Shown piece after piece: positions 4,543-53,300 of a stretch of 64,000 nt of DNA; positions within the stretch are counted from its first letter, which is position 1, and every line of letters starts with the position of its first letter. The translations under genes were made by a program, and so were the position numbers. Source of the DNA: Oryzias latipes (lineage: Eukaryota > Chordata > Actinopteri > Beloniformes > Adrianichthyidae); assembly GCF_002234675.1 (NCBI RefSeq), contig NC_019866.2, positions 24,798,955 through 24,862,954 on the forward strand, in the 5' to 3' direction. Below the pieces are notes generated by a model. It worked only from the letters and a program-made list of their open reading frames with translations. It did not search any database and had not been told where the DNA came from.

Positions 4543-8163
<3,621 letters not shown>

Positions 8164-8577: not shown

Positions 8578-8776
<199 letters not shown>

Positions 8777-8934: not shown

Positions 8935-9903
8935 CAGTTTTTTTCAGTCGCTTTAGTACAATTGTCAGATCAGAATGAAATTCCCAAAACTATTTGTTCA
9001 ATCTTCACATCATGATGTCACTTGTGCACATCATATAAGCAGTTTCTCACTTCTTTGAACAAGTTGCAATTGCTTTGGTACATCCATGCAAATGATTATG
9101 TACAATTCTCTGCTCTTTGCTACATTATCAATTGTTTATGTCATGTTGATCAAAATGTATTATATAGTTCACTGTGCAATAGTCTTACTCCTCAAAACTC
9201 CTAGTCATTAGTTCATCGTATAAGTCATTAACTGCAAAATGGTTGACCAAGTTGTCATAATGTGACAATCATATTTCGCTGCATTGCAAGAGAGGATATT
9301 CGCTGTGATGTGGATGAGAATTTGTGGCCTAACATACAGGAACGACAAGAGGTGTAGGAAGACCACACCAATTCCTACTGCACTGCCTGGACTGTTGGAC
9401 AGAATATTGTCCTATCTTTTTTCCCCTTTGTGTTACTGTTTGCAGTGGGTTTTTTCTATGTTGGTATGACATGGTCTGTCTACAAATTACAATATGAACA
9501 ATAAAAGTGTAAATGTGAATCTTGTCCAGTCTCTTGCAATCAAAAAAAAAAGGTGTAACTTCCATTTTACAATAATTGTCATCCAAACTTTAGCCATAGT
9601 TTCCATCAGAACCTCCCTTTAAAGTACACAGTTATATTGACAACATGACTAAGTCATTTGACTGTCTTGTTCGTAGACAATGACACAAGGACTTGACATT
9701 CTGATGGCACTGACATGTTCAATGACATAAAGACTTAGTTTGGAGAGATGAACTAAAGATTTTGAGCAAGTTACAGGCTTTTGCAAGAAATCCATAGTGT
9801 TTTGCTGTTTGTACAAATAGTTTTGAGAAATGCACACACGTATTTGCAAACTTCAATTCTGATCTGAGAATTGAAACTGAAGCGACTGAGAAAAACTCTA
9901 TTA
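8935..9903. mobile_element. Non-autonomous DNA element with long inverted ends
   Basis: The left end (tttcagtcgctttagtacaa, then tcagatcagaatgaa) is repeated in reverse complement at the right end, about 9850-9900. A second matching block, caaaactatttgt, lies at 8986 and near 9815, so the inverted repeats run about 80 bases or more with mismatches. The interior has no open frame with a recognisable domain. Superfamily not assigned. Confidence 0.65.
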
Positions 9904-9904
9904 C

Positions 9905-10780
9905 AAAACGCATGCCACCAGGTTAAGTCTGCCAGACCCAAAGTGTTTTTGACCTTTGACCTTGAGATAAAAGGGCTGTCCTCTTAAAATTTCCCTAAAA
10001 AATCCCCACTAGTGTACTTTTTACAAACTGAAACTCCTCCTTGGGCTTCTGACCCACCTTCTTCCTCTAAGAATGGACCTGTTCGTCAACCACATAAGTT
10101 AATACGTTCTGGATCATTGACTGTTGCAACTTCTTAGTTTACTCACTGAACTAGTAGCACAGCTCTGATGCAGTCACATCCACAGGAACCTGAATTCTCC
10201 ATCAGCTGTTAGAGTTGAAGAATCTCCTCAGACGAGCAACCAAACGTTTTCAAGAAGTCCGGTTCCCCGAAGAACACAACCCACCCCCGACAGGTGCTCC
10301 TTTTGACCGGACCAGCATGGCTGAGCTCTTTTTCAGTTAGAGAACTCTATTTTTTTGCAGAAAGCTACTTTTACTCTCACTCAATCTCCAGGCATGTGAC
10401 AAACTTAAATGAAAAACGGTCCTTGAAAAAGTCCTCGCTGTTCCCCGGACACCCGAAACCCTAAAGTGTGTAACGGTGTGAGCCTCTGGTTGGCATTAAC
10501 GCCAGCTTTGCTTTTACAAACAAAATGAGAGAAGATGGTAAAATTACTTATGTTTTTGTGAGGTTGTCACTCAAAATCGTGGAGGCTCTGTATCTGTGTG
10601 AGGCCTTTAATGGCTGCTGGGAAAACTGTATGTCCAGACAAACTCCAAGACTCAGATCAGTGAAAACAGTCTGTCTGTTTTAGTTAAGACAACCGAGTAC
10701 AAGTGAAATCTTATTCTCCTTAAAAGTGCAACTTGTCAGATAAGAGCAGTACACAAATACGTTCCTGTTGACAATCTGTG
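9905..10780. other. Intergenic stretch, nothing recognised
   Basis: No open frame with a known domain and no clear repeat boundary. It separates two inverted-repeat elements downstream of the polyaspartate gene. Confidence 0.5.
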
Positions 10781-10783
10781 TTT

Positions 10784-11709
10784 AATATTATGACGGAGTT
10801 TTAGGGCCCCAAAAAAAAAAGTACAATTAAGAGATTTAAACTCATAAATTTACGAGACGAGATTAAAGTGAAAGTGAGTTTACAGAGCAGCAGGTGAACG
10901 CAACGCAGCAGCAGAGCAGAGCGTCTAAACTTAGTAGAAAAGGTGAGCTGAATGTTTATTGATAACGTTCCAAATGTTGGGAAGCTCCTTTGTTTGATTT
11001 ATGATTTATTCATGTTTTATTCATTGATGGGTGGTTTGCAGGATCTCTGCAGCCGTTGAAGAAGAGATCGGTGTCCCTGCAGACGTCCACTTCAATCCTT
11101 TCTTCCTCCACCAAAGACCAGATCTCTACGTTTGTGTGATGCTTCCATCTGAGGAGGAGCACTTTTCAGCATTTTCAACATTCTAATGCTAATATAACAG
11201 ACAATTTTCATTCATATTTGTTGTTTTATGTTGAAACGGGACGTTTCATCTGGAGGAGGGGGCGTATGGAACAGTTTTCATTCCTCTCTGGTCTTGTGTG
11301 CATGACAGGTTCATGACGTAATGGGACAAAATGGACTTCTGGGTATGTGAATAAAAAGGACAATAAAGTAGTGGTCATTTACATCCAAACGTGTCTCTGA
11401 GCTCCTTATTTTACAGATGAAACTCTGCTTTACCGACACCGAAGCCCGGAAAGACGGCTACACTGACAATGATCTGATTTTGAGTCGGCAAAAGGTTAAA
11501 CATTTCTTTGTTTCTGAAACCTATCAGGAAATAAAGCTGCCCAAAAGGCTCAACATCTTTCATCTTCAAGCATGGCTCCGATAAACAGACAACGTTGGTG
11601 TTTTTCCCTGTAAATTTATGACTTTTTCTTGTAAATTTAAGACTTTAAAGTCGTAATTAAAAAAACATTTGTTTGTAAATTGGCCCTAAAACTCCATCGT
11701 ACAATATTA
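10784..11709. mobile_element. Inverted-repeat DNA element near the hrc 3' end
   Basis: The left end aatattatgacggagtttta (10784) is mirrored by the right end taaaactccatcgtacaata (ending about 11708), about 25 bases with two mismatches. Secondary inverted motifs with 'taaattta' lie just inside each end. About 925 bp, no transposase domain seen. The right end is only about 110 bases from the stop codon of the minus-strand polyaspartate gene, so its 3' UTR probably runs into this element. Confidence 0.65.
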
Positions 11710-11817
11710 CTGAAGACTTGTTCACGAATCTGAAAGACAGTTACAAAGGTATCCAGAAAATAGAGAGGAAGCTGATCTTCCTCAGTCTGGCCACATGGTG
11801 GCAACAAATGTTCGGCT

Positions 11818-14800
11818 TCAGTTGGCATCCTTGTCATCATCATCATCATCATCATCATCAAAGATGTCAGCTACAGTCCTGCGGATGAAGACAAGCAGAG
11901 GTCACAGGCTGCAGTTTGAAATTCTCTCAGGACGTAAGTAGGATGGATTCAGACGTACTTGTAGATGGATCCAGTCACTTCATCCACAAAACCTCCTGCA
12001 GAAAAAGACAAAAGATGAACCAAACAAGCCAGAACCACCTGTTCCTGTTGCAAAAGAAACCCGCCGTTTGGTTGGACTTTTCCTGCCTTCTCTTTGATGC
12101 ACAAATGAAATATAGGAGGAAGGCATTGATCTGCTTCTGTGGAGCGTTAAACCGCAGCTGCTGCCTGACTCCATGTTTCCCTGCTGTGGGAAAACGTGTT
12201 GACTACTGACGGACCGGCTGCAGAGGCCGGAACTTTCTGTTCTTCATGAAAGGAGGCTGATATGAAGGAAGAACACCAAGAATACATTTGCAAGAACGTT
12301 GAGTGTTTCCTTTGACTTGAACTAAAATGTATGTAACGTATGAAATGTCGGCCTTTCGTGATCCATGCGTGATAAACGTCATTCATAAGAGTTTCTTGCG
12401 TTCGTCATTCGACAATCGTGCGCAGATGTCCGTTGAGGGTTTCGTCCGACGAGTCTTTTTACGTGAATTCGGTTTTGAGAACTACGCAGTGTATGCATAT
12501 TTCACATAGTTTATACGCAATTATTACGTAAATCTTACACCGTTGTATGTGATTTTTTTCGAGATCCATACACTAATGTGTGTCTGTCCACGTCTGTTCC
12601 ACGTATGTCTAACGGATTTTTCACGCATGAAACCAAAACTTTTATATCGCAATTACGGCGCACATTTTACGTTAAAGTTACGTAACTGACGCACACATTT
12701 TGGGCCAAATTTGGCTTTATGTTGGTTTACGTCTTCTTTGCGTGGTTCATTCCTGATACATCTGTGATAACGTCCCGGACAGATCACAACTTTTCTCACT
12801 TTTTCCACTTAGAAAAAGTCATAAACGTTGTTTTTGACACAGCTGTGTCCCACACTAATCTGTCCTCTCTGAGGTCAACACGTGGTCGTTCCTGCTCTGC
12901 GGCTCCACGTCCACTCACCAGGCTTGCAAGCAGTTTCACAGAGAGGACACACGTGGCAGTAAGTGCACATCTGAGGGGAAAAAGAAACACAAATTTAAAG
13001 TTGAGGAGCTGTTTTCTTGATGTGAACTTGAATTTGATTGTTTTTCCTCCATTTAGAGCAGTTTCTAGCTGTTCATTTTTCATTTGGATGATTGTCTGTT
13101 CTGGGAGAACCATTGATTGTATCTGAGAACTGGACTGAGTGATTGTGATGTCATGCATAGAAAATGATTTAATTTCTACAATTGAAGTCACTTTAGTCAC
13201 CATTTTTTTGCGATGAGGACACCGCCATGTTGGAGCCAGATGACATAAGTAAGCAGTGATTGGTCCGAGTCCGGGTCAGCGAATTTATGGCAACCACTCT
13301 CACCAATCACGATTGAGCTTGTTGGAAGGCCACACCCCTAACAATTGAAAGCAGGCTACCTGAAATCTGTCAAATGTTTTGAACGTTGGATGTGGGGCCA
13401 GAAGGATCATTTTCTTCTGTTGACGCGTCTGGTCAGTTTATAACTTGAATAACAATAATATCATAAAGAATTATCAAAAAGACTTTAAAAAAAGGAATCA
13501 GATCCAGAATGGTTGTTCTGACCAATAGAATGACTGACTAACAGCTGTTTATTTCTTTATTTTCTTTCTTTCTTTTAAGTCTGTGGGATTTTGGCTTCTT
13601 GGAGCCGGGAGGTACTTCCTGTTTGGAACGCCAGGGGGGGAGGAGTCATTCAGTCCAGTTCTCATATACAGTAACAGTGAGACCTTGGTGTTGCACTGGA
13701 ATGAACATGACAGAACAAATGTTTTTCCTTTTCTTGGATATTGTTCAAGCAGGGGTCAGGGGTCAACCTGAAGGTCTGGAAGATTCTCACAAGTTCCAGC
13801 AAATGGATGAACCGATATCTATCACCGTCTTAACGTGACTCGCAGAAACAGACATTTGTGGAGTTGAGGATTTTATGAAATGACCGGTTGTCCATATTTA
13901 TCCTCTCATTTTCATAAGCGCACATGCTGGAAGGACATGCACGGAGAGCCACTGAACAAGCCTCTGCATGCGGGGGCGATCATGTGAAGGCTCTCACCTT
14001 GCAGTCATCACAGTGTTCGGACTCGTCTCCTTCCTCGCAGGGACATTTGTCACAGCTGTCGCAGTGCTGGAAGAAACCACAAGAGATTTGGAGAAAACCT
14101 GGAAAACCGCTGTTTCTGGCAAAAAAAAGAGCTTTTGGAAGATTTACCTCACAGAATTCACAATAAGAGCACAGAGAGCCTTTGTGGTAGGCACCGTCCT
14201 CCTTCTCTTCATCAGCATCATCTGCATCAAATACATTAGACAAAAAGGTCAACCTGTAAGCAACTTCAATTATCGTTTTCACTCGTAAAAACAAAACAAG
14301 GATTTCGGAATTCTGATCTTAACCCTTGTGCTATCCTAGGCACTTTAACATTGGGAGTTGGGTCATGTAGACCCACTAGACAGTGCTCTGAACCTTTTTT
14401 CTTCTATGATTTGTGATCTTCACTGGTGTCCATGGATTACATAAAATCTTTCCACCTTTATCCACCTTTGTCATGGTAGGGAGAACACCTCAATGGAAGG
14501 GGGGGGGGGTCATCTAAGATAGCACAAGGGTTAAACGTTGGTGTCAAATCTTCTGTTTTTCTGTGCATCAAACTAATCTTAAAACTTAAACTCTTCCAGG
14601 ATTTGTGTTCTACTCACAGTAGTCTATCTTCAGTGTTTGACTTTATTTATTTGTTTTCATATTAAATGATGTGGATCTTCTATAATAATAGTGAAAGGGA
14701 CCATTTTCATCCGTGTTAACAAAAACTATTTCGGTATGATGAGTCATTCAAAGTGATAACATAAATGTTACTGCTCAATTCTATAAACTATTACACAAAA

Positions 14801-16609
14801 AATGTCATTGGAGACCATTTCAGAACAATTTTAGCTCACGATTGAAATTTGGCACCAGGTTGCCAAACCAGCTAAAAGCTTTGAAAGAAAGAATTTACGT
14901 GAGTCCTCTGGGTTTGCATTAACAGAGAGAAGCAGATACTCACCCAGTCAGGACTGCAGCTCTGGGCCTCAGACAGGTAACATCAAACACGTGCACTTAA
15001 GCAGTTTGTGATCATTTGATTCTTTAATGAATGTGATGTTGAAGATACATGGACAGTTCAATTTTGCACACAATGGTTCACACATCACAGTTTGAGCAAA
15101 ACACAGGAAAAGCCGACAACCTTTTCATCTCTTGACAAGCTGATTAACGAAGAGATGTTTCTCTCTTTTCCCAAACACTCTTTCCCTGAAGCTTTGAAAA
15201 TCATCAGCAAATCCTCTGAGGTAACATCTTCTGACATCTGAGGTGCTTTACATGTGATTGGCTTAGCTTTACAAAAGATCAAAATGTCTATTTTCAGCTA
15301 AATCAGCTTTCAACAAACAGGGACTAACAATGGGCAAAAGCCTATTGGCCGCAGCAAAAGTATGTCTAGTGTTTAAGAACGTCTGCACTTAGCGGTTCAA
15401 GAAGTGAGGTATGAAAGAACAGGCTTCATAGAAACATGATAGATTCTGTTTTCAGTACATCACACGCCTCCTCAGTCAGTGGCATCAATGCTCCACAGAG
15501 AAAGAAAGAGATCAAGAGATATGGAGAAAGAGAGAAACGTTGAATCTGGTGGTACTAAAAGCTTTGAAATGGATAAATGTAGGTGGTGGCCCTCCTGCAC
15601 CTCCCCTCAAGCTTCATTTGTCCCCTGTCTGTTCCCGTAGCACCCCCACCGCCCTGGTTACTCTCAATATCAACTGTCTCTCTTTCTTTCTCTGCGGGTT
15701 CACATGAAGACACAAGTACATGTCAGTCTGATCCAAAACAAATGAGACAGGAGGAACCATATTTATCAAATGAAACACAAATCAAAAGAAATCAGGCTAT
15801 TGACCCGGGCGACTGATTCCCAAGTCAGGCTTGGCTTGAGTGAAATTGCATTTTGGTTCTTTCTCTCTCTCAAATCAATGCTTCTGCAGTCCTTGAGTTC
15901 AAATCTAGTGCACTGTACGAAGGACTTCGGACAGTTGGACTTCAGACGGGCCAGTTCAATTTCCCCAGAGAGCTCATAACTCTAGTTAGGCAGGGAAAAG
16001 AACAGAGTGTCAGAGACAGCAAGGGAAATGAACAGCTGGAAAGGGGTGGAGGAGGGACTCAAGTTACCAATGGGCTCTTTAACACAAGACACTGACAGAG
16101 ATGGTGAGGTTGTACCACTGTTGGTGAAAGGGAAGGGGCCAATAGTTTGGATTAGCCCCTCCCATTTACCAAAATTTAATAGGTGTTTGTTCTGATTTTA
16201 AATCTGAACACCAAAACCTCCAACATCAGCCAACACTGACACTGAACGCACAGAATGCTGTTGGATTGAAGTAAAACACGGCACTTTGGACAACCAGTCA
16301 AAAGGGGTTCAGTGGTCAGCAACAGCTGATACTTGGACTTTCATCTGGTTCCACTATGCTACAGGTCCTAACATCAGCAGATAGATAGACCTATGTAACA
16401 TAAGCCTCTCTCAGCCAGCTTTCAGCCATCGGCGTTTCCTATCCTCTCTGGGACCTGGAACAACGTTGGCTGAGAACTGGCTGAGAACCTGCAGTGGACC
16501 AGCAGAACCATTTCTCCTGACACAGAGCCAGACAGACAACAGCTGCATTCAATTCCACTCACCTCCATGATCATCGTCGTCATCATCATCGTCATCATCA
16601 TCATCATCG

Positions 16610-16641
<32 letters not shown>

Positions 16642-17112
16642 ATCATCATCGTCGTCATCGTCATCATCATCGTCGTCGTCGTCGTCATCATCGTCGTCGT
16701 CGTCATCATCATCATCATCATCATCATCGTCGTCATCATCATCGTCATCATCATCGTCGTCATCATCATCGTCGTCGTCATCATCATCATCATCATCATC
16801 ATCATCGTCGTCATCATCATCGTCATCATCGTCGTCGTCGTCATCATCATCATCGTCGTCATCGTCATCATCGTCATCGTCGTCATCGTCGTCATCGTCA
16901 TCATCATCATCATCATCTTCGTCATCATCATCATCATCATCGTCGTCATCATCGTCATCATCATCATCGTCATCATCGTCGTCGTCAGCCATCAGACCCT
17001 GCTCGTAACGGAATGGCAGATCCTGCGCCTTGGCGGTGGGGGCCAGCGGGGTGTGGAAGGAGCAGAGCAGTGCCAGCAGCAGTGCAAGAATGAAACTTCT
17101 CAACGATGCCAT
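11818..17112 (-). CDS. hrc: Polyaspartate HRC-like protein (aspolin-like)
   Basis: Six coding exons (5' to 3'): 16563-17112, 14148-14221, 13998-14066, 12919-12970, 11959-11995, 11818-11878; phases 1,0,0,1,2 join exactly, 280 aa. Residues 1-29 are a signal peptide (MASLRSFILALLLALLC...). Residues 43-181 are 138 Asp and one Glu. Residues 184-248 carry 14 Cys in CxxC patterns (CSYCEFC, HCDSCDKCPC, HCDDC, CTYCHVCPLCETAC), followed by GFVDEVTGSIYKTVADIF, nine Asp and KDAN. The Cys-rich part plus the VDxV...YxTxADx segment resembles the C-terminus of HRC, a Ca2+-binding protein of the sarcoplasmic reticulum lumen. Mammalian HRC has His/acidic repeats where this has poly-Asp. Fish muscle aspolins, linked to iron-dependent trimethylamine-N-oxide breakdown, have this design as I recall. 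ATG 17112 is the first ATG in frame. Position near trpm4 supports orthology to HRC. Confidence 0.87.
12310..12770. repeat. Dispersed TACGTA-rich repeat, copy 1
   Basis: Contains ttattacgtaaatcttaca, ggcgcacattttacgtta and tggtttacgtcttctttgcg. Close counterparts occur in the same order at 24990-25250, and a short piece near 56790. It lies in the intron between the fourth and fifth coding exons of hrc. Family unknown. Confidence 0.55.
13110..13678. mobile_element. MITE family A copy
   Basis: Ends are attgattgtatctgagaact at left and gttctcatatacagtaacag at right, an imperfect inverted repeat with the actggactgagt core. The body includes the shared 'ttggagcc..ggtacttcctgtttgg' and 'ccaatagaatgactga' blocks. 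It lies in the hrc intron between exons 3 and 4. Confidence 0.65.
14319..14534. mobile_element. piggyBac-type MITE, copy 1
   Basis: Starts TTAACCCTTGTGCTATC and ends in its reverse complement, GATAGCACAAGGGTTAA, with TTAA at both borders. TTAA target sites and CCC-starting ends are hallmarks of piggyBac elements. The inside, with gacccactagacagtgctct and tggtgtccatggattacat, is shared with the copies at 24726 and 27129. It lies in hrc intron 1. Confidence 0.8.
14535..16540. other. Rest of hrc intron 1, no extra exon seen
   Basis: The first and second coding exons of hrc join in phase across this intron, so no exon is required here. Possible minus-strand polyadenylation hexamers are ATTAAA near 16176 and AATAAA near 14642, relevant to an intron-retaining short form. 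A plus-strand open frame at 15583-15816 shows no domain. Confidence 0.5.
16568..16986 (-). repeat. hrc: Asp-codon repeat tract inside hrc exon 1
   Basis: About 139 consecutive codons alternate irregularly between GAT and GAC (read on the plus strand as atc and gtc), with a single GAA near 16916. Because only the wobble base varies, the tract is a trinucleotide repeat that is pure at protein level but mixed at DNA level. Shifted frames give long Met/Thr or Val/Ile open frames, which are artefacts. Confidence 0.95.
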
Positions 17113-17119
17113 GTTCACA

Positions 17120-19130
17120 GTCAGAATAGAGCCGCTCAAAGAGGAAATGACCTGGATTCACTGCAGGAGTCCAGCACTGCAGCCGTTGGCGACACACACA
17201 CACACCTGAAGAAAGCCACACGGAAGTGCAAGCGCCCCCTAATACCACTGCTGAATCAGCATCCGATAGGCAAGGTCCCGGGCTCCAAAGGTAGTCCGGA
17301 CTGAAACCTCCAAGTTCTAGAAAAACTATATCCTCACACTGGCAGATGTCCTTGCCTTGAATCTGGGGCCTGGTTAAAGCAGGAGCTTGTGATAGTCCAG
17401 AACTGCCCTTGTACAGTCAGTTTAGTCAGTGGCAATAAGCTGAGAAGAGGCAGTTGTCACTAACTGGTCAATGCTAAAGGCACAGACTCAACTAATGTAA
17501 GAGGGACAGAAAAAGAGTGACACCAACCTATGGGGTAAGTCGAGAAGGAGGGGGGCAGCAGGGCTGACTGACAGGGGCAAATGCTGGTGGGCAGGCCAGT
17601 CCTACCCATAAGTTAAGTTACCAGGAGAAGAAGAGCATAGTTGAGGGGTGGGAAGGAGGTGGTGGAACTTGTTCTCTCATCCTCTTCAGACATTTACTTC
17701 AGAAAGTCACACTTCAGGAAAAAGAAATGTGAACACCACCAGGCTCATCATTTGTTTCTCTGGCTGAACATGGAGGAGTTGAGTTAGAAATAGTTTGCTC
17801 TGTCTTGTTCTTGACAAGATCAGAACACAGTTCCTCAACATTTGCCATTGATATTAATGAGTTTAGATGGCGGGCTACCTGTTTGGTTTTCCAGGAATCC
17901 CCCTATTTCAAGGGATTGATGGTGGAAATCAGTAGTCATGCAGTTTTGAAAGGTGACTGTGGTCTTACGTGTTTGTTACTATTACCATTTTTCACTTTAA
18001 GTGTCAAACTGGCCCTACCGTACCCAACGTTGTTTGTAAAGGATTGTTCCCCTTCAGTAGGCCTCCTGACCACATTGGTTGGCTGATGGGCCTCAAAGTC
18101 CTGGCAATCCTGCAGCTGAAAGGGTTCAAAGATTGGATGGGCGGTTGCTGTAAATCCATTTAATGACCTGTGATCTGATTGCATTCCACAGGACGAGCAA
18201 TGTTAGCTCACAAACGTCTGTACCGTGACTCAATGTGTAACATAGTCATATGGGGAAGTGCGATGAAGGTTTCTGCCATACAGGCAACAATGGAGCATTT
18301 TCTGAACTTGCTTTTACGAAACAAGTCCTATAAACCCAGTTCCCCAATTATGCTGATGTGGCCAAAACCACAGTGATCTGTCTGCAGAATGTCTAACTTT
18401 CTTTCCCTCCCCCTCCATGCTGTGCCTGAAATAGATGGATTTGGGAGGAGTTGAAACCACCCTATTTAAAGCAGCACACTGTCAGAGTCAGTGTAATGTG
18501 AGCCTCACTGGCTCTGCTGCTGGACCAGCTCTGCACCCCCACCCTCCTTCACACCTCTGATGCTAGGAACATCTGAAAGTCCTCCAGAGTCAGTCTGTTA
18601 TTCAATTGATCACAGCTATTGAGTAGTTTATCTGCACAGTGTTGTGGTACTTTAAACTCACCATGCGGACGTTGCTTTTACAAAACACAAAAGAAAGCAT
18701 GATTTATTCCATTTAAAATGTCGTGTTTCCACAAAGGTTAATGTTTTGTACTGAAGCCAATTTCCTTGTTGGGTGTCAGGATTTAATTTAGACACATCAA
18801 GTGAAAAACATATTTGCCAAAAAGACAAACTGATTGAACACAAAGACTAGAATTTAGTCTCAGTCAGAGGAGAAGACACTCAAGGCTTTTGTTGGATGTT
18901 CCTATGACAACACAAGTTGTTTTGGTTTATGATGTCACATTTTTCTACTGATAATTGTCTACAAGCACACTTTTATTTAAACTGTTCAAATCTAAACAAA
19001 GATACCCAAACCTCATTTTCCATGGAGACTTCAGGTCTTCCAAGGGGACCCCTAGCTCCCAGGTAAGTTGAGAGCCACGGCCCTTGGTTTGTGAAGACCA
19101 GAAGTAGTCTTACTGGTCTTACTGTCATGA
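17120..19130. other. Upstream of hrc; possible promoter, no other gene
   Basis: No supported coding exon. It must hold the hrc promoter and any 5' UTR exon. An AT-rich box, cctatttaaagcag near 18461, reads on the minus strand as ctgctttaaatagg and could serve as a TATA or MEF2-like site about 1.3 kb upstream of the hrc ATG. This is a weak inference. Confidence 0.35.
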
Positions 19131-19132
19131 CG

Positions 19133-19738
19133 TCGTAGATGTAGCAGACCCAGATGCTGAAACCCAGAAGTAACTCACAACAAGGATGAACTTAAAAAAG
19201 GTTTATTTTGCCAACGGTAAATAAAGTTTCTGAGGGAACGTGGAAGTTATTTCCTCCGTGGGATGATCTTGATGTCCCTTAGAGCTGATGAAGGTGAGGG
19301 GGGCGACGCGAGGACGCGTCGGACCGTGGAGCCAGAGGGAGCGAGGCTTGGGCGCTGAGGACAGCAGGACCAGCTTGAGGCGAGGCGTGGACGCCGAGGA
19401 CGGCGGGACCAACTTGAGGCGAGGCGTGGACGCCGAGGACGGCGGGACCAGCTTGGAGCGAAACGTGAGTGCCCAGGATGGCAGAACCAGCGTGACCAGT
19501 GGAAGGAACCTGAAGGTGAATACAAGACGTGGTGAGTAGCAGGAACTAGGTAAACTTAGCTGAGACTAAAAGGCCAGGCATAAGCACCGGTGTGAGTATA
19601 ACGAACTGGTGTTGAATTCTGGTGAGACGCTCCCTTATGAAGACCGGCAGGGTGATGAGAAGATGCAGGTCAGCTGGTTCCAATCAGAAGAGCAGGAGAG
19701 CTGTGGGAGGGGGAGGTGAACTGACAGGAACCGTGACA
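19133..19738 (-). repeat. Long terminal repeat of gypsy element
   Basis: Read on the minus strand, it begins TGTCACGGTTCCTGTCAG directly after a G-rich polypurine tract (C-run at 19743-19759 on the plus strand). It ends near 19133 with ...CGTCATGACA, giving short inverted TGTCA/TGACA ends. It contains internal 37-bp-like duplications near 19370-19440 (repeated ggcgaggcgtggacgccgag). Confidence 0.6.
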
Positions 19739-19759
19739 GTTACCCCCCCCCCCCCCCCC

Positions 19760-21310
19760 TCAATGACCGCCTCCAGGCGGTCCAGGACGGTGATCTAGGT
19801 GAGCCCTGAAAAAGTCATCTAGGAGGGAACGGTCCAGAATCATGGAGCGCGAGATCCCAGAGCGCTCCTCTGGACCGTAACCCTCCCAGTCCACCCGGTA
19901 CTGGTGACCGCGGCCCCAGCGGCGAATGTCCAGAACCCGACTGACCGTAAAGCCGGGCGGGTGGTGGGGAAGCGGACGGCAGGCACAAGGGGCTTTCCTG
20001 AAAGGGTTTGATTTGGGAAACGTGGAAAGAGGGATGGATCTTCAATGCAGCTGCGAGCCGTGGCTTAACACAGGTTGGGTTGATGATTTTGTCAATGATG
20101 TACGGGCCAATGTAACGGGGTGCTAGCTTACGGGAGGTGACCTGGAGGGGAACATTCTTGGAGGACAACCAAAACTTTTGCCCAGATTGGTAATCCGGCC
20201 CCGCTCTCCTGCGACGGTTAGCCATCCGGCAGTTGCCTTCCCGGGTGCGAAGGAGAGCGGCTTTGGTCTGGCGCCAAATGCGTTGGATGCGTTGGAGGTG
20301 ATGTTGAACCGAGGGGACAGTCAGATCTATTTCGTGAGAGGGGAACAGAGGAGGTGAATAGCCGAGCGAAGCCTCAAAAGGTGAAATACCGGTTGCAGAA
20401 GAGGGATGGTTATTATGGGTGTACTCGATCCAGACCAGGAATTTAGACCAACTTGGGGGATTATGAGCGGCCAGGCATCGGAGGGCGTCTTCCAGCTCCT
20501 GGTTGGCACGTTCAGCTTGGCCGTTTGACTGGGGGTGATAACCTGAGGTGAGACTGACGTTTGCACCCAGGGCGGAGCAAAAGGACCTCCAGACCTGGGA
20601 TACAAATTGGGGACCCCTGTCGGACACGATGTCTTTAGGTATCCCATGATGTCTGAAGACTTGGTGGACCAGGACGTCAGCCATTTCAGCGGCCGTGGGG
20701 AGCTTGGACAGGGGGATGAACTGAGTTGCCTTAGAGAAACGGTCAACAATGTCAGTATGACTGTGTTACCTTCGGATGGGGGTAACCCAGTAACAAAGTC
20801 CATGGAAACGTGGGACCAGGGGCGTTCAGCGATGGGTAGAGGATGGAGGAGTCCGGCTGGAGGTGAATTGGAGGACTTGGACCTAGCACAGATAGATTGG
20901 TTGGTTATGTGGTGGTTAACCCAATCGAACTGGGGATTGTGACTGTGGAGCCAAGGAAAATCTAGGATGGCAGGAGACTGAAGAGTTTGAGTGATGTAAA
21001 ATTGAATAATTTCGTGGTGGTTACCGGAGGTGATCAGTTGAATAGGCTTGGTGCGATGAGTGATACGGGTGAGTAATTGACCACCCAGGCCAGCCGCTTT
21101 GACAGGGTGGTCCAACGGTTCTGTGGGGAGACTGAGCTTTGCAACCAAAAAACTGTCAATGAAACTCTGTTCGGCTCCTGAGTCAATAAGGGCCTGACAT
21201 GAATGAGTAGTAGACTGGTGACGTAGTTTGACAGGAACATGAAGGAAACTTTTTTCCTGGATAGTAGTAGGAGGACCCTCCCGCGGCCTGTCTTCTAGCG
21301 GGGGGCTCTG
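19760..21310 (-). mobile_element. Deleted Ty3/gypsy (Sushi-like) retrotransposon pol
   Basis: In 5' to 3' order on the minus strand: an aspartic-protease-like piece ending about 20900 (motif VAKLSLPTEPL and following); then, after loss of reverse transcriptase and RNase H, an integrase core. The integrase has its first Asp in the segment SMDFVTGLPPSEG, its second in [10 protein letters not shown] and its Glu in [15 protein letters not shown]. Next comes a chromodomain-like end with [14 protein letters not shown] near 19870-19910. The integrase is split by a one-base frameshift near 20730-20750, and the chromodomain is in another frame again, so the copy is dead. It is truncated at its 5' side near 21310. 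The chromodomain places it with the chromoviruses (Sushi type in fish). Confidence 0.82.
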
Positions 21311-21319
21311 GATAACCCA

Positions 21320-21960
21320 TTAAGCCTAAGAGAGCAAACAATATATTCTCTTCAACCACCCTTACCAGTGAAATGCCATGGACTAAAACTCTCCATTCAA
21401 ACACTTTCCATTCAACTGCTAACCGCCCAGTGCAGGCAGTTTGAGGAAACCAGTAGAACAGCGTGCCACCATGAACAGCAATGAATGCCTGTGGTTCTCC
21501 ATCGGGATATCCTCAGGTCCCTTGTTTTGCCTTGGAATTCTGTCCCAAAAATCTATGAACAGAACCAATAAGCTTCCCTGGGAATTGTGTCCTCATTTTC
21601 TTGAAAAAGGACCGCCAGTCTTGATCTAGCTTACTTTTTTTGACTGCTACTCAATCGAAAAAAGAATAAACTGCATCCAGCAACCTGGGGTTGTCTCAGG
21701 GTGGACATCTTGATGCCTAGCGAGTGAGAAGCTCTTGACCACCCAGAGGACTTCAGTTGACCAGCCCATTCTTAGGTCCCCTAACCCCTACTTCATCAAC
21801 ACGCCAGCGGAATTGAGTAGATTCTGTAGACGTATATCTTTGCAAACGAGCTCACCAATAGGAGATTACAGCACTGCCACTCTCTTCACCCAAATGGCCA
21901 AGAAACAGTTGTACCTCTCAATGACCTCCTCAGTAGAGTTGAATAATTCACCGCCAGCAT
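21320..21960. other. Intergenic, nothing recognised
   Basis: Follows the truncated gypsy element. No domain-bearing frame and no clear repeat ends. Confidence 0.45.
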
Positions 21961-21965
21961 TGTTG

Positions 21966-22450
21966 GTAGAGGATTTCAATTCAATTTTTCAATTTTATTT
22001 GTATAGCCCAAAATCACAACAACAGTCGTCTCGATGGGCTTCGAAGTAAACATGAACTCAAAAGGATCATGAATACAAAGAGTTCAATAGGAAAATACTA
22101 AAATGAACTAACAAACTGACTAAGCTATACTGGCATCCCTGCCCTTAGACCCCCCTTCGCGGTAAGGAAAAACTCCTAAAAAACTGGATTCCGGAAAAAA
22201 CGAAGAAACATCAGGGGTGCCCACATGAAGGAGGGATCCTTCCCCAGGACGGACAGGGGATTTACCAGAACTCTTAGAGAAGAATTAACTTATCTAAATC
22301 TACAACTACATATATAAAGTCCAGCAGACGAGCTTCATCCAGCCGTGGTTGGAGGGACAGTCAGGGGCGCGAGTCGAGCCTGAGACAGGAACCATAGCCA
22401 GGTGTAGGAGCAGGAGCAGAGACGAGGTACTCGGTCAGGAACAGAACAGT
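21966..22450. repeat. Common teleost interspersed repeat
   Basis: Starts ttcaatttttcaattttatttgtatagccc and contains gcggtaaggaaaaactcc and gaaggagggatccttcc. This string of motifs is widespread in fish genomes (the 'aaggaaaaactcc' family, often linked to LINE tails). Identification is from memory of the family; no transposase or reverse transcriptase seen. Confidence 0.55.
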
Positions 22451-29535: not shown

Positions 29536-29551
29536 GTTCCTTTCACTGTCC

Positions 29552-29918
29552 CACCTGACGGTCAACTACTTCCTGTTTACTATCCCACCTGACGTCAACT
29601 ACTTCCTGTTTACTATCCCACCTGACGTCAACTACTTCCTGTTTACTATCCCACCTAACAGTCAACTACTTCCTGTTTACTATCCCACCTCACGGTCAAC
29701 TACTTCCTGTTTACTGTCCCACCTAACAGTCAACTACTTCCTGTTTACTATCCCACCTGACGTCAACTACTTCCTGTTTACTATCCCACCTCACGGTCAA
29801 CTACTTCCTGTTTACTATCCCACCTCACGGTCAACTACTTCCTGTTTACTATCCCACCTGACGTCAACTACTTCCTGTTTACTGTCCCACCTGACGGTCA
29901 ACTACTTCCTGTTTCAGG
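29552..29918. repeat. Minisatellite, about 34-36 bp unit, 11 copies
   Basis: The unit reads approximately cccacctgacggtcaactac followed by ttcctgtttactat. Copies vary at ctgacg, ctgacgg, ctcacgg and ctaacag. It happens to leave an open plus-strand frame, which is not a gene. Confidence 0.93.
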
Positions 29919-35381: not shown

Positions 35382-38300
35382 CTGGAACGAAGGAGGAGAA
35401 GTAAGTAACAGGATCCAAACCCAGAGAGGCAGGAGCAGAACAATGCCAAAAGCAAAGATACCCGAGGAAGTCTCACAGATCAGACTCAACTAGAATGGAT
35501 GAAATAAAACGTTCTAAATCAAGAGAATTCAGTTGATACGTTTAATCATCACGAAAATGATCAACACAAAGGAAGCAAAACACATTAAACAAAGCATAAA
35601 CTATAGTTGCTACAGTGAAGCCAATAAGTATTTGATCCCTTTGCAGATTATAATAAAGAAATTGACGTTCTGTTGTCCTGATGGTCAGTTCATTTGAACA
35701 GTGAGAAATCAAGAAATCCACTTTGAAGAATTTATATACGGTTATTTGAATTTCATTGAGGGAAATAAGTATTTGAACCCTTATTTAAGTATTTGAACCC
35801 TCTAAGTATTTGAACCCTTATTTAAGTATTTGAACCCTCTAAGTATTTGAACCCTTATTTAAGTATTTGAACCCTCTAAGTATTTGAACCCTTATTTAAG
35901 TATTTGAACCCTCTAAGTATTTGAACCCTTATTTAAGTATTTGAACCCTCTAAGTATTTGAACCCTTATTTAAGTATTTGAACCCTCTAAGTATTTGAAC
36001 CCTTATTTAAGTATTTGAACCCTCTACGTATTTGAACCCTTATTTAAGTATTTGAACCTTCTTGTCAGAAACTCTTAGCACTTTGTTGCAAAACCATTAT
36101 TAGCAACACAGAGGTTTCCTGATCAGGTTTCAGATCAGGAGGAATTCTGCTTCTCTTTTCTTTACTAATGACTACATTCAGATTTGGTGGCTGTTGCTTA
36201 GCAACGCTGAGCTTCAGCTCTCTCCAGAGGTTTTCTATAGGATGGAGGTCCAGAGACTGGCTGGACAGCTCCATGATCAGAGTCATGGAGTGGTCCAGCC
36301 AGTGGATCTGCTTCTTCAGACGGTCCTTGGTTGTCTTTGCTGAATGTTTTGGGCCATGATCCTGTTGGATCATGCCCCCCCCCCCCCCCTTGAAAGAGGT
36401 TCTCACTCAGGATTTGACGAAACATGGCTCCGCCCATCCTCCCATCCACACGGTGCAGAAAAACACCCCTAAACCATAATGTTTCCACCTCCGTGCCTGA
36501 CAGTGGGAATGGTGTTCTTGGGGTCATCGGCAGCATTCCTCTTCCTCCAAACACGGCGAGTTGAGTTGATGCCAAAGATCTCCATGTGGGTCTGATGTGA
36601 CCACAGCACCGTCTCCCAGTCTCGCTCTACATCAGGAAAGTGTTCAGACTTCCAAAATAGAACTCTTTGGTGAGATCTCTACTCGTCGTGTTTGGAGGAG
36701 AAAGAACGATGAGTTACATCCAAAGAACACCAGACCTACTGTCAAGCATGTGGGTGGAAGCATCATGCTTTGGGGCGGTTTTTCACCAAAGGGACCAGAC
36801 GACTGATCCGTGTCAAGGAAAGAATAAATGGGGTCATTTATGGTCAGATTTGGAGCGAAATCCTCCTTCCATCAACATTGAAGATGAACTGTGGCTGGGT
36901 CTTTCAGCATGACAACCATCCCAAACACACGTTTCCTGGGTAACGAAGGAGTGGCTTTATAAGAGGCATTTCAAGGTCCTTGAGTGGCTTAGCCAGTCTC
37001 CAGATCTCAACACCATAGAAAATCTCTGGAGGGAGCTGAAAGTCTGTGTTTCCCAGCGACAGCCCCAAAACATCACTGCTCTAGAGGAGATCTGCATGGA
37101 GGAATGGACCAAAACATTACTGCTCTAGAGGAGATCTACATGAAGGAATGGACCAAAACATCACTGCTTTAGAGGAGATCTACATGAAGGAATGGACCAA
37201 AACATCACTGCTCAAGAGGAGATCTACATGGAGGAATGGACCAAAACATCACTGCTCTAGAGGAGATCTGCATGGAGGAATGGACCAAAACATCACTGCT
37301 CTAGAGGAGATCTGCATGGAGGAATGGACGAAAACATCACTGCTTTAGAGGAGATCTGCATGGAGGAATGGACCAAAACATCACTGCTTTAGAGGAGATC
37401 TACATGAAGGAATGGACCAAAACATCACTGCTCAAGAGGAGATCTACATGGAGGAATGGACCAAAACATCACTGCTCTAGAGGAGATCTGCATGGAGGAA
37501 TGGACCAAAACATCACTGCTTTAGAGGAGATCTGCATGAAGGAATGGACCAAAACATCACTGCTCAAGAGGAGATCTGCATGAAGGAATGGACCAAAACA
37601 TCACTGCTCAAGAGGAGATCTACATGGAGGAATGGACCAAAACAACACTGCTCTAGAGGAGATCTACATGAAGGAATGGACCAAAACATCACTGCTCAAG
37701 AGGAGATCTGTATGGAGGAATGGACCAAAACATCACTGCTCAAGAGGAGATCTGCATGGAGGAATGGACCAAAACATCACTGCTCTAGAGGAGATCTGCA
37801 TGGAGGAATGGACCAAAACATCACTGCTTTAGAGGAGATCTGCATGGAGGAATGGACCAAAACATCACTGCTCAAGAGGAGATCTGCATGGAGGAATGGA
37901 CCAAAACATCACTGCTCTAGAGGAGATCTGCATGGAGGAATGGACCAAAACATCACTGCTTTAGAGGAGATCTGCATGGAGGAATGGACCAAAACATCAA
38001 TGCTTTAGAGGAGATCTACATGAAGGAATGGACCAAAACATCACTGCTCAAGAGGAGATCTGCATGGAGGAATGGACCAAAACATCACTGCTCTAGAGGA
38101 GATCTGCATGGAGGAATGGACCAAAACATCACTGCTTTAGAGGAGATCTGCATGGAGGAATGGACCAAAATACCAGCAACAGTTTGTGAAAACCTTATGA
38201 AGACTTACAGGAAATGTTTGATCATTGCCAACAAAGGATATGTAACAAAGTATTTAGCTGAACTTTTGTTATTGACCAAATACTTATTTTTCACCATAAT

Positions 38301-41300: not shown

Positions 41301-44300
41301 CACACACGCCGCAGTCTGAACAACCAACCTGTCGGATCTCTTCACACACTAAGGTGAAAACCCAGAAGTAGAGGACGATCTCCAGAGGGCTGGGCCCGTC
41401 AGGGGGCGGGGGCTTGAAGTCCACCAGCAGCACGTAGGCGAACAGGCCGAGGAAGAGGAAGTACATCAGCACATTTCCCAGGAAGGAGGTCACCGGAGCA
41501 AACCAGAACTGCCTGCAGCGCAGAACAGCAAACGGTCTGTTGACACGGGGCTTTGGAGCGTCTGGATCAGAAAGAAGCAAAACCATCAGAAGTTCAGCGA
41601 TGGAGGATCACGTCAGGCCTTTGTGACGTCAAAGCCTCAGAGAGAGATGACAGTTGTGGAAACATGACAGCAGGAGGAAACCTCTCTCCAGAATCCAGCC
41701 CATTATTGGGGGGTTTGTTTCAAATGAAGACTCTTTCTAACACTGATGGATTCTCTCATTCTTCCAGGTGACGCTGAAGTTTAGTCACGGCATCTGTCTG
41801 AGGGCCTTCATCAGCCACAGATCAGAGTGATGAAGCCCCTCAGATGAGTGTGGAAACATTTCAAGAAGAAAAAACTTCAAGACAAGCCCAAGTGGAATTT
41901 CAGAGACGAGGACAAAGACCCACCAGACAGGTTTTCTTTCAAAGCTCGAAGCTCCTCTGCATCTTCCTTGCTGCAAAAAACACACAATGGATGAAAAGAA
42001 ATAGAAGTGAACAAGAGTCAGGCAGCAGAAATATATTCACACACAGGCCGACACATAGACGCACGCACGCAGACACATGCACAGACACATGCATGCACAC
42101 ACATGCAAACACAGACACATGAAGACACATGCATGCACGCACATGCAGATACACACATGCACACGCAGCCACGTGCACACATACACGCAGACACATGCAC
42201 GCACACACGTAGACACATGCACGCACACATAGACACATTCACACAGACAAACACACACACTCACGCACGCGCAGACATGCATTCATGCACACGCAGACAA
42301 ATGCATACACACGAAGACACATGCACACACACACACGCAGGCATAAGCACACATGCAGACACGTGCACACACACGCACTTATGCAAGCGCAGACACATGC
42401 ACATACACACAGATACATGCACACACACATGCATACACACACGCAGACACGCACACAAGCAGACACATGCACACACACAAACGTAGACACATGCACACAC
42501 GCAGACACATGCATGCAGACACATGCACAGAGACACTTGCACTCACGCACACGCAGACACATGCACACACACACGCAGACACATGCACACACACACACAC
42601 ATGCATGCACTTACGCACATGCAGACACATGCATACACATGCAGGCTCATGCACACACATACACACAGACACATGCACGCACACACACGAAGGCACATGC
42701 ACACACACACGCAGACGCATGCACACACACACAGACGCATGCACACACACACACACGAAGGCAAACGCACGCAGACACATGCACTCATGCACAGGCAGAC
42801 ACATGCACTCACGCACACACATGCACACGCAGCCAAATGCATACACACGCAGACACATGCACACACCCAGACACATGCACTCACGCACACGCAGACACAT
42901 GCACACACACACAGACGCATGCACTCACGCACACGCAGACGCATGCATACACAGGCAGACACATGCACACACACGCAGACACATGCACTCATGCACACGC
43001 AGGCACACGCAGACGCATGCATACACACGGAGACACATGCACACACGCAGACACATGCACACACGCAGACACATGCACACGCAGGCACATGCACACGCAG
43101 GCACACACAGACACATGCACTCATGCACACGAAGACACATGCATACACACGCAGACACACAAAAACACAGACACATGCACACACACACACACGCAGACAC
43201 ATGCACCCGCAGATACACGCACACACACGCAGACACATGCACACACACGCACACACACGCAGACACATGCACACACAGGCAGACACACACACACTGAACT
43301 TTACTTTTGAACAACATCAACTAGGGAGAGGACGCTGCCCTCATTCCCATCCATGCCGTCCGTGTCCATGCCCTGAAAAACTTCAGGGTTCAACTCCTCC
43401 TCCTCCCTTCAAAAATCCAGAAACAAAACAAATGTTAAAAATGATCAAAAGCAGAACAGGCAGGAAAGTTCTCTAATGGCTGCTTCCTCCCCGTGTTAAC
43501 AAGGGCTTTAGAGGGAATGTACACCCAGCCTCACAAAGAGCATCCTATAGATCTTTCATTTCCCCCCAGATCTCTCAAAGTCCCTTCTACGTCACAGTTC
43601 ATCTTTCCCGGGTTAGCTCATTCTTTCTGAGCGATCATGCTGCCTTTTTTAAACAGCGCACCCTGTTCTGTGTCCTGATTGGCTGGAGACCCTTTTAATC
43701 AATCTCCTCAGTCCGTGCCATGTCTCTTGTACAGAAACACGGAGCTCTTCAGATCAGAAATCTGTGATCAGATCTTTGTTTTCATTCTAAGATCCTGGAC
43801 TTAATTTCTATGAAGGTTTGAGAATTTAAACAAGAGAAAAGGGTGAAAATGTTCATGTCTGTGTGAGGAAAATGTATTTATGCAGTAAGGAGTTTTACTG
43901 CCATAAACGTCTGGAATCAGACTGTGGATTTCACCGATCACGGTTATTTTTAGAACATAACTCCTGCAATAAACGAGGGACTCTGTACTGGTGAAAAGAT
44001 AACGCAGATATATGTGTAGCTGCAGCAGAAGACAGAGAAATTAACTTTTTTTCATTATTACTGGATGAGAAAGACTGCAGAACGCAGCGCAAACTGAGAC
44101 GTGATGAGCTGCAGCCCTCAAAGTCTTTATTAGGATTATGACGGGAGAGGATCCACTGTTTATTGTATTTTTGTGTGTGTGTGTTTTTTAATGCATATTT
44201 TTCCTGAATTTTTGTCTTTGAAAATCATAGTGTTATTTTGTCATTGTTCTATTTCATAAATAATGTTATTTACTTTATTAAAGGATCATGAATGAATGAA

Positions 44301-50300: not shown

Positions 50301-53300
50301 GCGAAACCATGCCAAACACGGAGAGAAAATCAAAAAAACGTAACTTCACTCAATGTGAAGTAGAAGTTATCGTTGGCGAGGTGGAAAAGAGGAGAAAGTG
50401 TTGTTTGGAGGGCACAGTGTGGGCATTACTAATGCCAAAAAGGCACGTGAGTGGCAGACGGCTGTAGCCTCACAACCTCGGACCGTGGCCGAAATAAAAA
50501 AGAAATGGTCGGACATCAAAGTCGAGGCAAAAAAACGTCTAGCGCTGCATCGCCAGAGTGTGTCACGGGTGGGTGGGGGGGGGGAGAGACTGGCGGCAAT
50601 AATTGGGGAATCCCTTCTTGCTGTCTAAAGATGCGTTCACTCCGAATTCTTCCATTTGCCACATCTTCTAAGAGCGCAAGATCAGCCATTGTGCGTCATT
50701 ACGCATTGTGATGGGGCATTTTATTTCCCTCCATTTAATTACATCTGACAAGCTACAGATGTCGGTAATAATCAAAAATAAAACAAACTAAAGGCATATG
50801 CATGAATACCATAATTCTGTAGCTTATGAAGAAATGTTTTACTATGAAAACAACTTTCCCCAGTGGACAATTAATGCATCTCTCTCCATCTATCCATCTG
50901 TCTGTCTAATTGCACCTATATCTGCTCTGCCAGACGGACACATTATAAACGCGGCTAATCAGTTTTGTACATTATTTCGTTCTGTTAACTATATTATTTA
51001 TGAGGATGAATTGCACAACATGCCAATATTGCAGAACATATTTCACTTTTCTTTTTGCAAATAAGTGTTCATTTGAATTTCTGTTGTAATTATCGTTTGA
51101 TTTTTTTTTTATTTGTCTCACTGCTGATCGATCAAACGGGTGTTGGTGTAGCTGTTAATTGTAAGACTTGCTTTGTGAAGTCTTCATGTTATTTCTGAGA
51201 GGCAGGATTGTCATTTTCACTTTCACGTGTTTCTTCCATCTGCCGACGGTGTCGCCGTTTCTCATTTCACCCGTTTTTGTGCGTACGCCTGGGTCAGAGC
51301 TTGAAGGACCGCACATTTTCCCGTCAAGTTTGCTTTTTATAAATATCAATTATTGCGTAGAGAGTGGCGTATGCCTTCTTTTGTGCGTACGCAACGTTTA
51401 TAAATGAGGCCCCTGGTGAGTACTGGCTCCTTAGTGACCGCGTGCAAACACTGCATGTAACGGTGGTGCACCCACCGTAAGTGCCAACCCTTTAAATGAG
51501 CGCCCTCAGCTCCGTTCCCTGAGCATCTTCCTCACCTCAAACAGGCTGAGCTGCAGTTCTGAAGCGGGGCTCATCATCAAACACTCGGAGCTCGCCTTAG
51601 ACGCTGATGCTGCTCCGTTCACGAGGGACTCCGACCTGTTCAGGTCCTGCCTCTCGTTCAAGCGTTTCTGGAGCAGACTGTAAGCCAGCGTCGTGTCCGA
51701 CAGTTTGTTGTACAACTTTTCCAAGCGACCATAGGTCAGATAATCCAGAATATTGAGGCCATTTTCACAGAAGAGACGCACAAAATGAGGCTTGTCGTTG
51801 ACCAGAGCGTCTGTCATGGATTCCTCCAGTTCATGGTACTAAAAGAGAAAGAGAAGGTTACTTCAATGACTTCACAGCTGATGAGCTCAGACTCAGTGGT
51901 GTAGATGATGTAACATACACTCCATGCTATGGCTCCGTTGAAAAGCTCCGCTTTAGCGATGTCCACTCGGTTCCACGCCACCGCCAGTTTCAGCTCTTCA
52001 ACCCACTCGATGGCTTTGTTGCAGACTCGTTTGCTAGCTTCAGACAGACACACATTCAAAGATCAGAGGTGCAGAGTGAGGCTCACACGTCTAACTGGAC
52101 GGACGATGAGGATTCAGGAGAGACAACCGCACAATCCTCACAGGATGCACTCAGAAAAGTAATTAATGCAAAACATCTGAAAATCATGTCATCCTGTTTT
52201 CTCACCTCCAAGAATCGATCTGAGGAGGACGGTGTCAAAGTCGTCAGAGTCTTCGGATTCGCCGCGAAAAACAGTGATGAAGTCCCGCTTCTGATAAATA
52301 CTAAGAACCTGTTGATGTAAACATTACTGCTATTAACACAACAGTGACAGCTACAAATGTTAATATAAAAAGTGGTGTCGTTGTAGCGTTGTCTCCTCTC
52401 ATGTCTTCAGTCATTTAAACACCCATGTTTCAGTTACTAATGGACATAATGACATCATAGAGCTCTGGTGGTAACGTTTAGGTAACGGGACACGCAGTTC
52501 TCCTCACAAATTCTTCCAGTCAAATTTCACCTCCTCTCCCATGTTTTCCTTTTGGGTTGAGAAGGATTAAATTAAATATGAATCTGGAACTACAGACTCA
52601 GCTTTCTCAAGGTGGTGATTTCAAAACTGGCTGGTTTGAAAGACGGTTTTGATCAGCGCTCTGTAAGAAGTCTTGCTAAATGGTCAAAAGTGAATAATTA
52701 TACATTACTCTCTGCTTTGATGAAGGGAAGTCTAAAGTGCTTTGATGTCCCTGGACTCATTCACACATTGATGCCCACATTCACACATGCACTCTCACAT
52801 TCACACATGCACGCCCACATTCACACATGCACTCTCACATTCACACATGCACGCCCACATTCACACATGCACACCCACATTCACACATGCACTCTCACAC
52901 GTTCACATTCACACTCTCACATTCACACATGCACTCTCACACGTTCACATTCACACTCTCACACGTTCACATTCACACTCTCACATTCACACATGCACGC
53001 CCACATTCACACATGCACTCTCACACGTTCACATTCACACATGCACTCTCACATTCACACATGCACGCCCACATTCACACATGCACTCTCACACGTTCAC
53101 ATTCACACGTTGATGCCCACATTCACACATGCACTCTCACACGTTCACATTCACACATGCACTCTCACATTCACACATGCACGCCCACATTCACACATGC
53201 ACACCCACATTCACACATGCACTCTCACACGTTCACATTCACACATGCACTCTCACATTCACACATGCACTCTCACACGTTCACATTCACACATGCACTC

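Follow-up and report, generated by a model that had tools for sequence, protein, structure and literature searches.

A probable fish orthologue of the histidine-rich calcium-binding protein HRC with a nearly pure poly-aspartate tract

INTRODUCTION

Which protein is encoded by a gene whose first exon specifies an unbroken row of 139 acidic residues, nearly all of them aspartate, and whose following exons specify a cluster of 14 cysteines? This question is raised by a locus on the minus strand of the window, i.e., the 64-kb stretch of Oryzias latipes DNA that was analyzed here on both strands or in all six frames where stated; all coordinates are window positions. An initial annotation had assigned the gene to HRC and had suggested that aspolin is simply the fish form of that protein. 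Aspolin is reportedly an extremely Asp-rich muscle protein of walleye pollack that promotes iron-dependent demethylation of TMAO, and its description is said to go back to Takeuchi et al. in 2003.

As described in PMC6171002, HRC possesses a signal sequence of 27 residues, nine acidic repeats that are rich in His and are believed to bind Ca2+, and a C terminus with 14 closely spaced Cys residues in a Cys-X-X-Cys pattern suggestive of heavy-metal binding. According to the same description, Ca2+ binding is of low affinity and high capacity, and the partner bound by the Cys-rich domain is triadin (PMC6171002). An HRC in fish is in itself no novelty, since an expression table for salmon already includes a histidine-rich calcium-binding protein alongside troponins and parvalbumin (PMC3338085). 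Among the matches listed from the literature searched, nothing was found on a poly-Asp HRC.

RESULTS

The hrc-like gene model runs from position 17112 to position 11818 of the minus strand and comprises six exons that were joined in frame at predicted junctions, yielding a coding sequence of 843 nt, including the stop codon, and a product of 280 amino acids. Exon 1 (16563 to 17112) carries the signal-peptide-like N terminus (residues 1 to 29), a short linker, and the poly-Asp tract (residues 43 to 181), and it ends in phase 1. Exon 2 (14148 to 14221) encodes an acidic linker and the first three Cys residues of the Cys module, whereas Cys 4 to 9 are located in exon 3 (13998 to 14066) and Cys 10 to 14 in exon 4 (12919 to 12970). 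Exon 5 (11959 to 11995) contributes GFVDEVTGSIYK, and exon 6 (11818 to 11878), which contains a TRF array at 11834 to 11860, encodes TVADIF followed by nine Asp residues, KDAN, and the stop codon. A stop codon is present in frame 16 codons 5′ of the ATG. All five introns have GT-AG ends, and the exon phases match across all junctions. The donor sites agree with the consensus at seven or eight of nine positions, and four of the five acceptor sites have 13 to 15 pyrimidines among 17 positions; the weakest acceptor (9 of 17) is that of exon 2, i.e., of the junction between the Asp tract and the Cys module. The six-exon poly-Asp gene of the initial annotation is thereby confirmed: its coordinates, strand, matching phases, and 280-residue product were reproduced, and its counts of 138 Asp plus one Glu in a row and 14 module Cys residues, as well as the second Asp run, proved exact. 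Neither an Rfam search at gathering scores (positions 9000 to 22000) nor scanning the window for tRNAs gave a hit.

The predicted splicing of exon 1 also bears on how many products the locus has. Reading past the exon 1 donor leads to a stop after HGGEWN, and intron 1, with a length of 2,341 nt, contains AATAAA at 14651 and 14647 (overlapping) and ATTAAA at 16180 and 15028. These features would fit a locus with two products, namely, the full six-exon HRC and, from a putative exon-1-only transcript ending in intron 1, an aspolin-like, near-pure poly-Asp peptide, secreted or luminal, that consists of the signal, the Asp tract, and HGGEWN; they would also suit the two aspolin forms that reportedly occur in pollack. 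However, AATAAA is expected by chance about once per 2.3 kb at a rough rate, and the donor of exon 1 matches the consensus at eight of nine positions. We regard a second, exon-1-only product as unlikely.

By inspection, the N terminus of the predicted protein resembles a signal peptide of 29 residues, with a hydrophobic core and, at its end, the site A-K-A|Q, in line with the A-x-A rule. After the presumed cleavage, 173 of the 251 remaining residues are acidic, corresponding to a charge of approximately −165 at pH 7 in a simple pKa model. The whole protein has 15 Cys residues, of which 14 belong to the module and one to the signal peptide. The His-rich acidic tandem repeats that characterize the mammalian protein are absent; there are 6 His residues in all 280 positions and none in the acidic tract. 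S-x-E motifs do not occur in the 280-residue protein.

The poly-Asp tract (16570 to 16986, minus strand; TRF array at 16566 to 16977) consists of 139 codons, specifically, 85 GAT, 53 GAC, and one GAA, and encodes an uninterrupted series of 138 Asp residues and one Glu at residues 43 to 181. Four of the five other reading frames are open across the tract as well, where they would be translated into stretches of Ser, Met/Thr, Ile/Val, or His/Arg, so that openness alone is no proof of Asp; the Asp frame was chosen because the signal-like sequence precedes it in frame and the Cys exons come after it. A repeat of this kind might be no more than a trinucleotide microsatellite, neutral and without a selected role, that is in frame by accident. 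The C-terminal run of nine Asp residues, with eight GAT codons and one GAC, does resemble a young microsatellite. For the long tract, a (GTCT)48 array elsewhere in the window (8580 to 8771), in which GTCT and ATCT units form blocks and which is presumed to be neutral, served as a comparison. In the tract, GAT and GAC are finely mixed, the 139 codons falling into 57 runs of like codons and the 48 units of the array into 10 runs, and codon positions 1 and 2 are invariant in all 139 codons. The longest exact internal repeat has 16 codons, a length that was reached in 78 of 500 Markov simulations (mean, 13.5) and is thus within chance, which makes the tract unlike a recent block expansion. Acidic stretches are, moreover, described within the repeat region of mammalian HRC (PMC6171002). 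Because the GTCT array likewise varies at a single position only, the restriction of variation to the third codon position supports selection for Asp but does not prove it; a simple probability of third-position-only change was for the same reason dropped as proof of selection. Overall, it appears very improbable that the acidic tract is neutral.

The Cys module comprises 14 Cys residues within 46 residues near the C terminus, and 10 of the 13 intervals between them are of the CxxC type. Such an arrangement is rare in the window: at least three Cys residues in CxxC register were found at eight places in the six frames of the 64 kb, three of these lying in the predicted exons 2, 3, and 4, and at least four occurred only once, in exon 4. 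When the module was aligned with a provisional sequence of the human HRC C terminus, 38 of 79 positions were identical, including 24 of 64 at non-Cys pairs. The alignment score was 252, whereas 2,000 shuffles in which every Cys was kept in place gave a mean of 102 (standard deviation, 13) and a maximum of 150. As the human sequence is provisional and not a database entry, this similarity is to be read as a strong lead. At E values of up to 10, Pfam gave no match for either the whole protein or the Cys module, and a PDB sequence search gave none for the Cys module, so that membership in HRC has no independent support from these databases. The single NCBIfam row obtained (E value, 0.34; residues 58 to 179) falls within the Asp tract and was rejected as a composition match. 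One scan of viral contigs revealed no relative, and six peptide strings from the C terminus had no occurrence in the literature searched.

In its plan, the fish protein agrees with mammalian HRC as described in PMC6171002: both combine a signal sequence (29 residues by inspection versus 27 published), a long acidic region, and 14 clustered C-terminal Cys residues in CxxC spacing. Together with the strong alignment to the provisional human C terminus, this agreement supports the HRC assignment made in the initial annotation. The further statement of that annotation, that Asp has replaced the repeats, presupposes a direction of change. The mammalian chain is much longer than the 280 residues predicted here, a C-terminal fragment of it being numbered 609 to 699 (PMC6171002). 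The two proteins differ further in that the mammalian one has His-rich 29-residue repeats and an S-x-E site, whereas the fish protein has one nearly pure Asp run and no S-x-E. In human HRC, Ser96, a site of the S-x-E type, is acted upon by Fam20C (PMC6298778), and control by Fam20C cannot work in the same way in the fish protein because the motif is missing there. That exon 1 and exons 2 to 6 belong to separate genes, as the 2.3-kb intron with its weak acceptor and the predicted junction might suggest, is hardly credible, given that the phases fit, that the frame of exon 2 has no ATG after the last upstream stop (150 nt read), and that mammalian HRC unites the same parts in one protein (PMC6171002).

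The genomic neighborhood was considered next to the gene itself. Downstream of the hrc-like gene, on the minus strand, lies prmt1 (4797 to 7355, the span of the open reading frames holding the four exon pieces searched); these pieces matched PRMT1 chains best (2.3e-84), followed by a best PRMT8 chain at 5.0e-79. Upstream, likewise on the minus strand, a channel gene of the TRPM4/5 clade extends from 34900 to 58925 (span of the open reading frames holding the exon pieces found). Its nearest exon piece found is approximately 18 kb from the hrc-like gene, beyond a remnant of a Gypsy-like retroelement (19763 to 21319, minus strand) that lies between the two genes and outside the hrc-like gene; for the retroelement, an integrase core, a retroviral protease, and a Tf2-1-like SH3 domain scored above the cut-off and a chromodomain just below it. 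Searched against the PDB, the 12 channel exon pieces gave 552 bits for the best TRPM5 chain, 502 for the best TRPM4, and 416 for the best TRPM2, and the three pore-side pieces alone gave 235 bits for TRPM5 versus 185 for TRPM4. Nevertheless, the lowest-scoring TRPM5 chain listed (8sl6) still reached 538 bits, and against the top TRPM5 chain, 7mbp, which we take to be zebrafish TRPM5, the first N-terminal piece scored 47.9 bits and the pore side 376. In our view, a fish trpm5 is disfavored both by the weak match of the N-terminal piece and by the fact that all TRPM5 chains listed score almost alike, and on these sequence comparisons trpm4 is the likelier name of the neighbor despite scores nearer TRPM5. 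The claim that the gene stands next to trpm4 as in human has partial support, in that a gene of the TRPM4/5 clade is located upstream on the same strand, but the better scores to TRPM5 leave the name of this gene less firm. In human, HRC, TRPM4, and PRMT1 are all located at 19q13.33, and HRC and TRPM4 lie on opposite strands. The linkage with prmt1 and a TRPM4/5 gene counts in favor of the HRC assignment, and the better TRPM5 scores count against it.

Several tandem arrays were noted in the same region. A 44-bp minisatellite with 25 copies and a 95% match occupies positions 37065 to 38170 within the TRPM gene span (region 36068 to 38170); by eye, it continues from the end of a plus-strand frame for a Tc1/mariner-like transposase (36913 to 37125), as if this had been partly amplified. 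Two minus-strand pieces near the minisatellite gave no Pfam match. Long CA-rich, degenerate tandem arrays are present at 42038 to 43294 and 52758 to 53950, also within the TRPM gene span, and an array with 11 copies of a 34-bp unit is found at 29537 to 29914.

In the 2.2 kb upstream of the hrc-like gene (17113 to 19300), no perfect MEF2 or CArG site was found. The same interval holds five MEF2-like places with one mismatch and 12 E-boxes; taken together, these observations carry little weight either way.

DISCUSSION

We consider it highly probable that the gene is the fish orthologue of HRC and, as part of the same explanation, that its product would work as a luminal Ca2+ buffer of the SR. 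The signal peptide would direct the protein into the ER/SR lumen, where the poly-Asp tract would bind many Ca2+ ions weakly and reversibly, resulting in a buffer of high capacity. By analogy with the Cys-rich domain of the mammalian protein, the 14-Cys CxxC module may anchor or regulate the protein at the triadin/ryanodine-receptor complex, and expression of the gene would be expected in muscle. Since the chemistry would need only a dense row of carboxylates, the exact repeat could vary from lineage to lineage next to a constant Cys module.

As a presumably luminal, acidic Ca2+ store at triadin, the protein would be comparable to calsequestrin. Calsequestrin, however, is composed of thioredoxin-like folds, whereas the fish protein has no Pfam match and its Cys module no PDB match.

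The second protein to which the gene product may be compared is aspolin, a muscle protein of fish that reportedly has a very long run of Asp as well. It is plausible that aspolin is the product of fish hrc, and this identity may already have been stated in the 2003 report on aspolin. In the literature searched, no paper containing the word aspolin was found, and the passages of PMC13409537 that name TMAO demethylase leave the protein undescribed. We regard as somewhat better than even the case for a fuller proposal, according to which aspolin is the putative product of hrc and has its true job in Ca2+ storage in the SR, its acidic domain being made of a single residue type without His and only the Cys module being constant. 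Should aspolin prove to be this protein, the same ligands, namely, the carboxylates and perhaps thiols, would bind iron and demethylate TMAO as a side reaction.

Overall, the gene call of the initial annotation is correct, careful, and of a known kind. A poly-Asp design appears to have been known already from fish muscle proteins. What makes the finding interesting is its clean contrast with mammalian HRC, together with a link to aspolin that can be tested. If the assignment is true, what HRC needs, i.e., many carboxylates and the Cys module, would be separable from the mammalian extras, i.e., the His-rich repeats and the control via S-x-E sites, and the fish protein would represent a natural minimal HRC for tests of Ca2+ buffering and triadin binding. 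If the link to aspolin is true as well, a protein known from food quality would be tied to the Ca2+ physiology of muscle.
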